The notes under the pieces were generated by a model. The model made no database searches, was not told the DNA's origin, and saw nothing but the letters and a program-made list of their open reading frames with translations. DNA of 64,000 nt from Cobetia marina (lineage in GTDB: Bacteria > Pseudomonadota > Gammaproteobacteria > Pseudomonadales > Halomonadaceae), in the NCBI RefSeq assembly GCF_001720485.1, contig NZ_CP017114.1:3472001-3536000 (forward strand). The letters are read 5' to 3'. Below are positions 58,568 through 63,972 of this stretch, in pieces (within the stretch, counting starts at the first letter, position 1; the number at the start of each line of letters is the position of its first letter). The position numbers and the translations under genes were made by a program.

Positions 58568-58684
58568 ACTCATTTCATCGAGACACGAGGCATCCACACT
58601 CCTCGCGCCAACGTTGATTGAGTCAAGTACCGAGTCAGTCATTGCCATCTGTCCATGCTGCCACTTGCCGTGAGAGGACCTCCC

Positions 58685-59038
58685 ATGAAATTCCATCGCT
58701 CGCCTGCTGCCTCACAGCGTCATGCTGCAGAACACGCCGCCATCGTGCGCCAGCCGGCCATGGTCCTGGCACGTATCACCGATCAGCCGTCAGATGGCCA
58801 CTCGCGTGACGCGGTCACGCCACAGCGACAGCGTGAGATCCAACAGGAGGCGATGGAGCATGTGGCCATGCTGCTGGAGCGCGACCGCCGCCGGACACGC
58901 AATCGCCTGCTGCTCGCAGCCGGCATGCTGCTGAGCCTCGTGTTGCTCGCCAGTCAACGTCCCGCCGAGCCCGAAGCCGCCTTCTCCCAAGAGCTGGGCC
59001 AGACGATGTCCTCCCTGTCCGCTCAATCATTCTCATGA
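58685..59038 (+). CDS. Small single-span membrane protein, unknown
   Basis: A 117-residue protein that I do not recognise. Residues 1-70 are polar with many charged residues (RQREIQQEAMEHVAMLLERDRRRTRNR, a likely amphipathic helix), followed by one membrane helix LLLAAGMLLSLVLLA (about residues 75-90) and a short acidic tail. This is type II or tail-anchor-like topology, with most of the protein in the cytoplasm. AGAGG is eight bases before the ATG, and a dedicated terminator follows, which supports a real gene. The promoter has nested inverted repeats. Confidence 0.65.
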   Translation: MKFHRSPAASQRHAAEHAAIVRQPAMVLARITDQPSDGHSRDAVTPQRQREIQQEAMEHVAMLLERDRRRTRNRLLLAAGMLLSLVLLASQRPAEPEAAFSQELGQTMSSLSAQSFS

Positions 59039-59129: not shown

Positions 59130-59160
59130 TCCCATCCGGCTGCCCGGGTGGGATTTTTTT
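59130..59160 (+). terminator. Rho-independent terminator of the small membrane gene
   Basis: A 10-bp stem (59130-59139 with 59144-59153), loop CTGC, followed by a run of eight Ts ending at 59161. Confidence 0.9.
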
Positions 59161-59188
59161 TGCCATGGCATGGCCAGGTGTCCCGTCG

Positions 59189-59349
59189 CTTCTCCCTTTT
59201 TCACTCTCTCCCTTTTTCACTCTCTCCCTTGATCACTTTCTTCCAGTATCACTTTCTTCCAGTATCACGTCCTTCCCGCATCAGTCCCCTGAATCCCCTA
59301 CCCGCATCACTCCCCTGAATCACTCCCCCCGCATCACGTTCTGTCTGCA
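59189..59349 (+). repeat. 16-bp pyrimidine-rich tandem repeat
   Basis: Six contiguous 16-bp units (59189-59284), for example TCTCTCCCTTTTTCAC and TTTCTTCCAGTATCAC, mostly ending TCAC, followed by degenerate 13-16-bp units to about 59349. The strand is strongly pyrimidine-rich. The array fills much of the 643-bp gap 59039-59681, which otherwise shows no gene. Confidence 0.85.
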
Positions 59350-59681: not shown

Positions 59682-60808
59682 ATGCTCCACGTTGCAGACA
59701 TGACGATGTTTCATGCGCCGTCCAGCGGCGGCGTGAGAACCTATCTGGAAGCCAAACGACGACGCCTACGAAGCCGACCAGGCATTCGTCACAGCCTGCT
59801 GGTTCCCGGAGAGTCCTCCAGTGTCAGCGATGACCTCTATCACGTCCCGGCCCCCCGATACCCTTCGGCAATGGCTACCGCTTCCCGCTGAGGCGTGGAG
59901 GCTGGGTCAGCACCCTGCTGGCACTGCAGCCGGACGTGATCGAGGCGGGTGACCCCTACGTCACCGCCTGGGCGGCATTGGATGCAGGCCGCAAGCTGGA
60001 TGTCCCGGTGATCGGCTTCTATCACTCGGATCTGCCACGTCTGATCACCAACCGTCTCGGCGAGTGGTCGGGGGCCAATGTCGATCGCTATGTGCAGCGC
60101 CTCTATCGCCATTTCGATCGCGTGCTGGCACCCAGTGACGTGATGGCGAGGCGACTGGATCGACTCGGGGTACGCAATGTCCACATCCAGCCACTGGGCG
60201 TCGATCTGAACACCTTCCACCCCGATTGCCGGGATCAGGACCTGCGACGTGAACTTGGCCTGGCGGATCACGTGCGACTGCTGGCCTTCGCCGGCCGCGG
60301 TTCACGCGAGAAGAATCTCGACGAGCTGCTGGAAGTCGCCCGTCTGCTTGGCCCGAATTACCATCTGCTGTTGATCGGCTCCGGGATGCCTCGCCACCTG
60401 CCGGACAATGTCAGTGTCACCGGCCATTTCTGCAGCAGCGCGGAGGTGGCACGACTGGTCGCCTCCGTCGATGTGCTGTTGCATGCCGGCACACAGGAGA
60501 CCTTCGGTCTGGTCGTGCTGGAAGCCATGGCCTGCGGCACGCCAGTGGTGGCCGCTCGCGCCGGTGCGCTGGCGGAAAATGTTCCGCTGGGCTGTGGCCA
60601 ACTGTGTGATCCTCATGCACCGCATGCCATGGCGCGTGCCGTTCAGGACATCTTCGCCAATGACCCGGCGGCCCTGGGTCGCCAGGCGCGTCGTCATGTG
60701 GAGAAGCACCATGACTGGGACCGCGTGGTGGATGGACTGCTCGATCACTATCGCGCCGTCACCGGCACTCAGCTGCAACCGATACTGGAAGAGGTGACAC
60801 ATGGGTGA
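59682..60808 (+). pseudogene. GT4-type glycosyltransferase with a one-base frameshift
   Basis: The N-terminus (MLHVADMTMFHAPSSGGVRTYL) is read in one frame to about 59856 and the rest (FGNGYRFPLRR...VIEAGDPYVTAWAALDAGRK onward) in another. The shift is in a run of six Cs (59851-59856); seven Cs would give VPAPPIPFGNGYRFPLRR and a continuous 376-residue enzyme. The two Rossmann domains of a GT-B fold are present, with GVDLNTFHPD and the E-x7-E motif ETFGLVVLE for the nucleotide sugar. The downstream part alone (from ATG 59936) lacks the acceptor-binding N-terminus. It could be a real mutation, a sequencing slip or a gene rescued by slippage. It overlaps the next gene by eight bases. Confidence 0.85.
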
Positions 60809-61616
60809 GTCTTCAGCCGCCAGAAAGCATTTCCTGCTGGTCCTCCATGACATCGCTCCCGAGACCTGGCAGGACTATCGCGACTTCGTCAATCAGATGG
60901 ATGAGCTGTGTCAGGAGCGACTTGGCCATCCCTGCCCGATCACCTGGCTGGTGGTGCCGGACTTCCACCATCGCAACCCTCTCGAGAGTGCTCCCGAGTT
61001 CATCGCCCTGCTGGAGGCCCGCAGACAGCAGGGCGATGAACTGGCGCTGCATGGTTTTCATCATTGCGATGATGCGCCACCGCCCCGCACGCCACGCGAT
61101 TACGTGATGCGCCGCGTACTGACCTGGGAAGGCGAGTTCTATCCCCTCGATGAGAGCGAAGCCAGACGGCGTCTTCAGGAAGGCGCTGCCCTGTTCAAGC
61201 GGCTCGGCTGGCCGCTGTCGGGCTTCGTGGCACCGGCCTGGTTGATGAGTGACGGCACACGGCGCGCCCTGCAGGCACTGGACTTCCAATACACCAGCGA
61301 CCCTCAGCACCTCTATCGCCTGCCGGACTTCACCCCCATCGATGCTCCGGGACTGGTGTGGAGCGCGCGCTCCGCGCCGCGGCGCGCCATGTCCCGCTGG
61401 GTCACGGAACGCAAGATGGCGCGTGAGCGTGACGCCGATGTCCTGCGCCTCGGACTGCATCCGGTCGACATGCGCCACACGGGCTCGCGAGACTACTGGG
61501 CACGACTTGTCACACGGTTGCTGGATGATGGCTACCTGCCGATGACCAAGATCGATTGGCTGACACACAAGGGGCTGCTCACCGCCGATCGACGGAATGC
61601 CGACAGTGCTGCCTGA
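60801..61616 (+). CDS. DUF2334 polysaccharide-deacetylase-like protein
   Basis: A 271-residue protein of the DUF2334/polysaccharide deacetylase superfamily. LVLHDIAPETW carries the expected Asp, ELALHGFHHCDD has the metal-binding His residues, and a C-terminal LRLGLHPVDMRH closes the barrel. No signal peptide is visible, so it acts on a cytoplasmic glycan or lipid-linked sugar. It starts within the end of the glycosyltransferase (ATGGGTGA overlap), so the two are coupled and probably act on the same product: one adds an N-acetylated sugar and this one removes the acetyl group. Confidence 0.85.
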   Translation: MGESSAARKHFLLVLHDIAPETWQDYRDFVNQMDELCQERLGHPCPITWLVVPDFHHRNPLESAPEFIALLEARRQQGDELALHGFHHCDDAPPPRTPRDYVMRRVLTWEGEFYPLDESEARRRLQEGAALFKRLGWPLSGFVAPAWLMSDGTRRALQALDFQYTSDPQHLYRLPDFTPIDAPGLVWSARSAPRRAMSRWVTERKMARERDADVLRLGLHPVDMRHTGSRDYWARLVTRLLDDGYLPMTKIDWLTHKGLLTADRRNADSAA

Positions 61617-61679: not shown

Positions 61680-62684
61680 ATGAATCGCGCCCTGTGGATG
61701 CTGGGAGCCGGCCTGGTGCTGGTCATCGCCGTGCCGCTGGTGCTGGGCGGCAGTGGGCTGGGGAGCCAGCTGCGCCAGTTCCCCCTCGAGACCTTCGCGC
61801 TGATGCTGGGCATGATCGTGATGTGCTGGAACCTGAATGCCGGACGCCTGCGCCTGCTGCTGGCCGGGCGTGGCGGCCACCTCGGACAGCGGCGTGCACT
61901 GGGCATGGTGATGGCCACCGAGTTCGCCATCAGCGCCACGCCGGGTGGCAGTGGCGGCCCGCTCACCCTGATGGGGCTGCTGGCACGTCAGGGGGTACGC
62001 CCGGCACACGCCTCGGCGGTGTTTGCCGTCGACCAGATGACCGACATGCTGTTCTTTCTCTCGGCGCTCGCCAGCATCGGGCTCTACGCACTGTCGCATA
62101 CCATCGATCTACGCCTGGGCTGGATGCTGGCCGTGCCGGCGCTGCTGCTGATCTTCGGCTTCGGCCTGCTGGCGGCGCTCGGCAAGCATCATCGACGATT
62201 GATCAAGGCCAGTGGCCGCCTGCTGCGCTGGCTCAAGGTACGCCATCGTTCGCGCCTCAGACTGGCGCGTGCCTTGATCCATTTCCGCCATGCACTGATC
62301 GAGACGCTCGCCCTGCCTCGCCTGACGTTGAGCCTGATCTTTCTGCTGTGCTGCGCCCATTGGCTCTTGCGCTATTCCATCCTCTATCTGGCCGTCGCGG
62401 GACTTGGGCGCGACATCGACTGGAGCTGGACCTTCATCGTGCAGATGCTCTCGCTCGCCGCCGGGCAACTGACGCTGCTGCCCGGTGGTGCAGGCGGTGC
62501 CGAACTCTCGTCCACGGCACTGCTGGGGCCTGTCATCGGTGCCTCCACCGCCGCTGCCGCCGTCGTCATCTGGCGCGCCGTCACCTTCTATTTCTACCTG
62601 ATCGCCGGTGCCCCGGTGTTCTTCGTGATGGCGGGACGCGGCATGCTGGCCCGCCTGCTCAATCGTCGCTCGCCCTCGGCCTGA
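61680..62684 (+). CDS. Flippase-like membrane protein (LPG_synthase_TM/UPF0104)
   Basis: A 334-residue inner-membrane protein with about eight helices of the lysylphosphatidylglycerol synthase transmembrane (YbhN/UPF0104) family, which moves or flips lipids but lacks the soluble synthase domain of MprF. The glycine-rich ATEFAISATPGGSGGPLTLMGLL and LSLAAGQLTLLPGGAGGAELSSTALL motifs are the family signature. It is 63 bases after the deacetylase on the same strand, so glycosyltransferase, deacetylase and this protein form one probable operon. The lipid moved is unknown. Confidence 0.85.
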   Translation: MNRALWMLGAGLVLVIAVPLVLGGSGLGSQLRQFPLETFALMLGMIVMCWNLNAGRLRLLLAGRGGHLGQRRALGMVMATEFAISATPGGSGGPLTLMGLLARQGVRPAHASAVFAVDQMTDMLFFLSALASIGLYALSHTIDLRLGWMLAVPALLLIFGFGLLAALGKHHRRLIKASGRLLRWLKVRHRSRLRLARALIHFRHALIETLALPRLTLSLIFLLCCAHWLLRYSILYLAVAGLGRDIDWSWTFIVQMLSLAAGQLTLLPGGAGGAELSSTALLGPVIGASTAAAAVVIWRAVTFYFYLIAGAPVFFVMAGRGMLARLLNRRSPSA

Positions 62685-62826: not shown

Positions 62827-63972
62827 ATGTCCGGCTCCCCTCATTTCCTGACTCACCGCTCACTCACGCGTCTTGGCGTGATGGGCGCATTGCTTGTGAC
62901 CACGGCCTCCACTGCCCTCGCCGATGACGCGACGCTGCGCAGCATCGACCCCGGCCATGGCACCGACAAGGTCGTCGTGGCTCACCGTGGTGCCTCGGGC
63001 TACCTGCCCGAGCACACGCTGGCCGCCAAGTCGATGGCCTATGCCCAGGGTGCCGACTTCCTTGAGCAGGACGTGGTGATGAGCAAGGATGATCAGCTGG
63101 TGGTGCTGCATGATCGCTTTCTGGATCGCGTGACCAATGTCGCCGATGTCTTCCCGGACCGCGCTCGTGAGGATGGCCGCTACTATGCCATCGACTTCAC
63201 CCTGGATGAGCTGCGCAAGCTGGCCTTCAGCGAGGGCTTCACCGTCAAGGATGGCGAGCGTGTCACGGATTACCCCGAGCGCTTCCCGCTGGGCAAGTCC
63301 CACTTCGGTCTGCATACGCTGAGCGAGGAGATCGAGATGATTCAGGGCCTGAATCACTCCACGGGCCGTGATGTCGGCCTGTATGTCGAGATCAAGGCCC
63401 CCTGGTTCCATCAGTCCGAGGGCAAGGAAATCTCCAGAGCCGTCCTCGAGACGCTCAAGCAGTACGGCTATGTGGACCATGACGACAATGCCATCGTGCA
63501 GGTCTTTGATCCCAATGGACTCGAACGCATCCACGACACGCTGCAGCCCGAGCTGGGCATGGACCTGCGACTGGTGCAGCTGATGGGCGAGACCAGTTGG
63601 GACATGACCTTCCAGCCGGGCTCGGATGGCAAGCTCGAGCCCTACAGCTATGACTGGATGTACCAGGATGGGGCCATGCAGCGGATTGCCGGCTATGCCG
63701 ATGGCATCGGGCCGTGGAAGCCGATGGTGATCGAGGACAGCTCGACCCGGGACGACATCAAGGTCACGCCGCTGGTCAAGGAAGCGCATGCGGCAGGCCT
63801 GATCGTGATGCCCTATACCTTCCGGCTTGATGAGGGTCGCATCCCTGACTGGGCCAGCGATTATGATGACATGCTGCGCGTGTTCTTCGTCGACGCCGAT
63901 GTCGATGGCGTCTTCACGGACTACCCGGACCGCGCGGTACAGTGGCTCAAGCACAACGGCGAAGCCCTGTAG
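62827..63972 (+). CDS. glpQ: Periplasmic glycerophosphodiester phosphodiesterase
   Basis: A 381-residue secreted enzyme that splits glycerophosphodiesters from degraded phospholipids into glycerol 3-phosphate and an alcohol. A signal peptide (about residues 1-32, cut near ALA|DDA) is followed by the catalytic VAHRGASGYLPEHT with His53 and Glu62, then FLEQDVVMSKDD with Glu80 and Asp82 and the second His95 in VVLHD. Length fits E. coli GlpQ (358). An AT-rich promoter region lies at 62735-62800; I found no clear Pho box there. It recycles phosphate from lipids, in line with pst and phoD elsewhere in the window. Confidence 0.93.
   Translation: MSGSPHFLTHRSLTRLGVMGALLVTTASTALADDATLRSIDPGHGTDKVVVAHRGASGYLPEHTLAAKSMAYAQGADFLEQDVVMSKDDQLVVLHDRFLDRVTNVADVFPDRAREDGRYYAIDFTLDELRKLAFSEGFTVKDGERVTDYPERFPLGKSHFGLHTLSEEIEMIQGLNHSTGRDVGLYVEIKAPWFHQSEGKEISRAVLETLKQYGYVDHDDNAIVQVFDPNGLERIHDTLQPELGMDLRLVQLMGETSWDMTFQPGSDGKLEPYSYDWMYQDGAMQRIAGYADGIGPWKPMVIEDSSTRDDIKVTPLVKEAHAAGLIVMPYTFRLDEGRIPDWASDYDDMLRVFFVDADVDGVFTDYPDRAVQWLKHNGEAL

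Follow-up and report, generated by a model that had tools for sequence, protein, structure and literature searches.

In the deposited genome of Cobetia marina, a gene for a GT4 glycosyltransferase, gpgS, changes reading frame at a run of six Cs. Does this break reflect a switch, a mutation in the sequenced strain or an error in the sequence? The gene lies in a window of 64,000 nucleotides, positions 3,472,001–3,536,000 of the one contig (4,176,400 bases) that makes up the genome. If the run were a switch, it would bear on how bacteria tune membrane charge, as the gpgSDF operon makes a cationic phospholipid. If the break is an error, the type-strain reference would hold some 23 falsely broken genes (extrapolating from 7 per 1.264 Mb to 4.18 Mb), and readers could mistake such breaks for the loss of recB, mgtE or gpgS. 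The evidence presented here indicates that the split is likely not a real feature of gpgS, and that the breaks found across the assembly point to sequencing error at short C/G runs and not to a switch.

A gpgSDF operon with a split first gene

The features of the locus, numbered from the first base of the window, are as follows:

59130..59163, + strand: terminator-like hairpin with a T run, upstream of gpgS; a weak call, the scan having found 3 sites versus 1.9 expected by shuffling
59682..59891, + strand: 5′ part of gpgS, from the ATG at 59682 to a premature TGA at 59889–59891 (69 aa); aligns with the five intact Cobetia copies
59834..60808, + strand: remainder (3′ part) of gpgS, in a different frame that opens at 59834 and stops at 60806–60808, with homology from about 59852; matches NF053787
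59851..59856, + strand: six-C run at the frame change, one base shorter than the same site in five Cobetia congeners
60801..61616, + strand: gpgD, GlcNAc-PG deacetylase, intact; DUF2334; 390.5 bits against NF053788 (cut-off 280); overlaps the 3′ end of gpgS
61680..62684, + strand: gpgF, predicted GlcN-PG flippase, intact; LPG_synthase_TM; 466.9 bits against NF053789 (cut-off 320)
62827..63972, + strand: glycerophosphodiester phosphodiesterase gene adjoining the operon

The original prediction of a glycosyltransferase is borne out and can be made exact. The 3′ part of gpgS alone scores 515.5 bits against the NCBIfam model for N-acetylglucosaminyl phosphatidylglycerol synthase (NF053787, cut-off 480), and the GpgS homologue of C. 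amphilecti (P0003) scores 616 bits against the same model. The downstream genes were also rightly described as intact, both gpgD and gpgF being uninterrupted. Judged by sequence, the three genes are a gpgSDF operon. The operon has been described in Pseudomonas aeruginosa by lipidomics of mutants and by expression in E. coli (PMC12713373), and the likeness extends to both the identity and the order of the three genes, all of them above the cut-offs of their NCBIfam equivalog models. The C. marina operon differs from the one in that description in that its gpgS is frameshifted in the assembly. By family, GpgS would place GlcNAc on phosphatidylglycerol, GpgD would deacetylate the product and GpgF would act as the lipid flippase, a role that is given as a prediction for P. 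aeruginosa too (PMC12713373).

In C. marina, the phosphodiesterase gene comes after gpgF; it has a match in 3 of 80 related gpgS loci (the 80 best of 98 retrieved when the 3′ part served as query). On the other side of the operon, degenerate short tandem repeats with units of 13–32 bases occupy 59191–59337, between the terminator-like hairpin and gpgS. Farther upstream, an ORF of 127 aa (58655–59038) has no Pfam match at E 0.001 and is matched in only 2 of the 80 loci, both from Cobetia (L001 and L002).

One base is missing at a run of six Cs

The deposited sequence confirms that gpgS is split where two frames meet at the six Cs, as had been claimed; the gene does not form one uninterrupted frame in the C. 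marina assembly, being divided by a frameshift. Neither frame is closed at the run, and the two overlap from 59834 to 59888. Alignment with five other Cobetia genomes places the missing base at the C run, as a single base in the third codon position. The claim that one added base restores the gene therefore stands as to the base, but not as to the length of the product: the 1127 + 1 bases amount to 376 codons including the stop, and hence to 375 residues rather than 376.

We also compared substitutions private to the window copy, at positions where the five relatives agree. Third codon positions account for 8 of 12 such changes upstream of the break and for 20 of 31 downstream, and by this measure both sides of the break show ordinary coding constraint. 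Because the private changes look protein-coding, the break must be either very recent or not real.

Homologues read through the site

In all five of the other Cobetia genomes compared, gpgS is uninterrupted, one base longer and without that C run; the set holds one genome per species and so consists of congeners, not of other C. marina strains. A comparison of C-tract length among relatives, which the original prediction had proposed, thus finds no such run at the site in any of the five. Across the family, gpgS exceeds the NF053787 cut-off in 79 of 121 genomes and is full length in 78 of these 79, a count biased toward intact copies because a gene broken in the middle would score below the cut-off and go uncounted. 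The 78 full-length proteins span profile positions 1–2 to 359–360, and the sole exception is the window copy, which begins at position 53.

In 77 of the 80 related loci the N-terminal motif is in frame within the distance threshold, and in the other three it is in frame at a greater distance from the upstream stop. A shared frame break was found in none of the 5 congeners, the 80 loci or the 78 other copies above the cut-off, sets that overlap (locus L001 is C. amphilecti N-80, the genome G001, and L002 matches G002). When the 69-aa piece was used as query, six short proteins were matched, none with the gpgS break of the window: three cross the site in the normal frame, two depart from that frame before reaching it, and one stops short of it. 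The nearest match in a protein search with clusters at 90% identity, among 120 of 3169 matches, was P0003 (374 aa, 93% identical), whose cluster of 58 members would hide any intact copies from the same species.

These comparisons bear on whether programmed slippage, ribosomal or transcriptional, could yield full GpgS from the split gene at the C run. Frames that are both open from 59834 to 59888 and coding constraint in both parts would be in keeping with such a mechanism. However, with the N-terminal motif in frame, no locus among the 80 requires such a mechanism, and on visual inspection the sequence at the site departs from the X XXY YYZ heptamer that is the rule for slippage sites. We regard the chance of programmed slippage as next to negligible.

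Single-base losses recur across the assembly

We scanned 1.264 Mb of the C. marina genome (30% of the total) against C. amphilecti N-80. Of 845 ORFs chosen, 630 were aligned, with a total of 728,063 bases, the remainder having failed tests of length, identity or coding. The alignment revealed 15 isolated indels that were not a multiple of three, all of one base, comprising 12 losses and 3 gains in C. marina relative to N-80. A local coding filter, designed after the first results, was passed by 8 of the 15. In seven of these eight, a conserved gene is broken by the loss of one base at a C/G run of 6–7, at contig positions 2773018, 3250743, 3329907, 3391469, 3531852 (the gpgS break), 3582918 and 3901419. 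The broken genes are gpgS, mgtE, an nhaD-like antiporter gene (above the NF038006 cut-off and below that of TIGR00775), recB, a dctM permease gene and two without a family match. The eighth event that passed the filter, a one-base insertion at 3906456, is not located at a run and falls within the initial 7% of a long ORF. The eight indels outside the seven lie at runs of 1–5, one of them the gain of a single base where the run is 5 long, and none of the 15 is a single-base gain at a C/G run of at least 6.

Such runs make up a small part of the genome. C/G runs of at least 6 number 9 in the window, 103 in 464 kb and 265 in the scanned 1.264 Mb, where they hold 1,629 of 1,264,000 bases (0.129%). 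Losses placed at random would leave a C/G run of at least 6 in 0.18% of cases on N-80 and 0.24% on the C. marina genome; all possible single-base losses were counted, since a run can also arise when the base that interrupts it is lost. The observed proportion, 7 of 12 losses or 7 of 7 filtered losses, is far above this 0.18–0.24%. The six-C run in gpgS is itself ordinary for the genome, being one of the 265 and not unusually long. Under-calling would leave an assembly short of C/G runs, but a comparison of C. marina with two references (N-80 and cqz5-12) found no such shortage; runs of 5–7 are instead commoner in C. marina than in either, so that more sites are at risk.

The excess is peculiar to one of the two assemblies. 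With N-80 as the target and the same script, isolated indels again numbered 15, in 637 of 847 ORFs (746,420 bases). Of these, 2 pass the filter and none of the 15 lies at a run of at least 6; several are mirror images of the C. marina breaks. The recurrence is thus 7 in 630 ORFs versus 0 in 637. A comparison over 464 kb used both N-80 and cqz5-12 as references. Four of the five isolated indels found there in 285 ORFs were one-base losses at C/G runs of 6–7 and the fifth was an 8-base deletion; with N-80 or cqz5-12 as the target, 267 ORFs gave one indel each, neither at a homopolymer and both, by eye, in over-extended N-termini. Three of the seven breaks have been checked against one reference only.

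A cruder first pass had given six frameshift calls in C. marina and none in either control. Two of the six (N-80 ORFs 1085 and 10) were dropped as poorly aligned sequence. The same pass gave 17 in-frame-stop calls in C. marina versus 5 and 4 in the controls, most of them start extensions or spurious frames by eye; one, in ORF 785, is the 3250743 break seen differently. Running the second block without the local coding filter yielded six events in each direction, again mostly over-extended N-termini or spurious by eye, and this run was superseded by the filtered scan. The 8-base deletion at 3235577, present in the two-reference result and listed as an 8-base insertion in the reverse comparison, is absent from the final 15, and the scan can therefore miss breaks. 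This deletion breaks a gene of 175 aa that looks NusG/RfaH-like by eye, and it is possibly a real mutation, since it is not at a homopolymer.

A switch, a mutation or an error

The original prediction listed a slippage switch, a fresh mutation and a sequencing error as possible causes of the split; an error is now favored among the three, and what was offered there for a switch was the run itself. Phase variation would have the length of the C run change in culture, toggling gpgS on and off. The run does lie early in the gene, where a one-base change shifts the frame, and GpgS acts on a membrane lipid. The locus also resembles the phase-variable glycosyltransferase genes described in Campylobacter and Neisseria in pairing a glycosyltransferase gene with a homopolymer at the frame change. 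It departs from those descriptions in that the C. marina run is short and not conserved: it is absent from the site in the congeners, and among the 80 loci a run of six Cs is found nearby in one (L078). Next to the tracts of known contingency genes a run of six is short, and a run of this kind is one of hundreds in the scanned sequence. In addition, the break is one of seven like it in the same assembly, the others falling in unrelated genes such as recB and mgtE. Phase variation of gpgS is, in our estimation, very improbable. The broader proposal that all seven breaks are real, and that this free-living marine bacterium carries low-threshold slippage switches genome-wide at C/G runs of 6–7, we consider extremely improbable.

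A real and recent loss of one base at the C run, inactivating gpgS in the sequenced strain or culture, deserves closer attention. GlcNAc-PG and GlcN-PG would then be absent, and gpgD and gpgF would remain. Homopolymers are the commonest place for replication slippage, and the loss sits in one; the coding constraint still visible in gpgS is what a very recent event would leave; and 42 of the 121 family genomes have no gpgS above the cut-off, which marks the gene as dispensable in the family. Against a fresh mutation stand the six other conserved genes with a like loss within 1.26 Mb, recB and mgtE among them, and the comparison genome, which has none at such runs. We consider a real mutation unlikely, though we continue to weigh it because genuine slippage would also target homopolymers.

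In our view, the split in gpgS is most probably a residual homopolymer base-count error in the deposited consensus, and the living bacterium does not have it. An error is favored because the assembly shows losses without gains at C/G runs of at least 6, in unrelated genes that close relatives have kept, and because the joint loss of recB, mgtE, the nhaD-like antiporter and the dctM permease is unlikely. The excess of losses at C/G runs is an observation, from which we infer that the seven single-base losses are errors. Location in a homopolymer alone is no proof of error, since real slippage also falls there. It also counts against an error that, to our knowledge, none of the named broken genes (gpgS, mgtE, the nhaD-like gene, recB and dctM) is strictly essential. 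The genome of C. marina JCM 21022T was, we presume, sequenced on PacBio. Errors in long reads are mostly homopolymer indels (PMC12007338), and the assembly errors described in that source resemble the present ones in being single-base homopolymer losses that break conserved genes. In the minION assemblies it describes, however, most deletions follow runs of 4–5 (PMC12007338), whereas the seven in C. marina lie at C/G runs of 6–7. If the split is such an error, the gpgS of the organism probably forms one frame and works as in P. aeruginosa.

Distribution of gpgD in halomonads

The same loci reveal an uneven distribution of the deacetylase gene. Among the best 80 of 98 gpgS loci, 20 have gpgD directly after gpgS, followed by gpgF; 59 have gpgF without a gpgD match; and 1 has neither. 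Genome counts point in the same direction, with gpgS above its cut-off in 79 of the 121 family genomes and gpgD above its own in 51. On the evidence of these family matches, many halomonads carry a predicted synthase without the known deacetylase. Such halomonads may make GlcNAc-PG instead of GlcN-PG, or may use another deacetylase.
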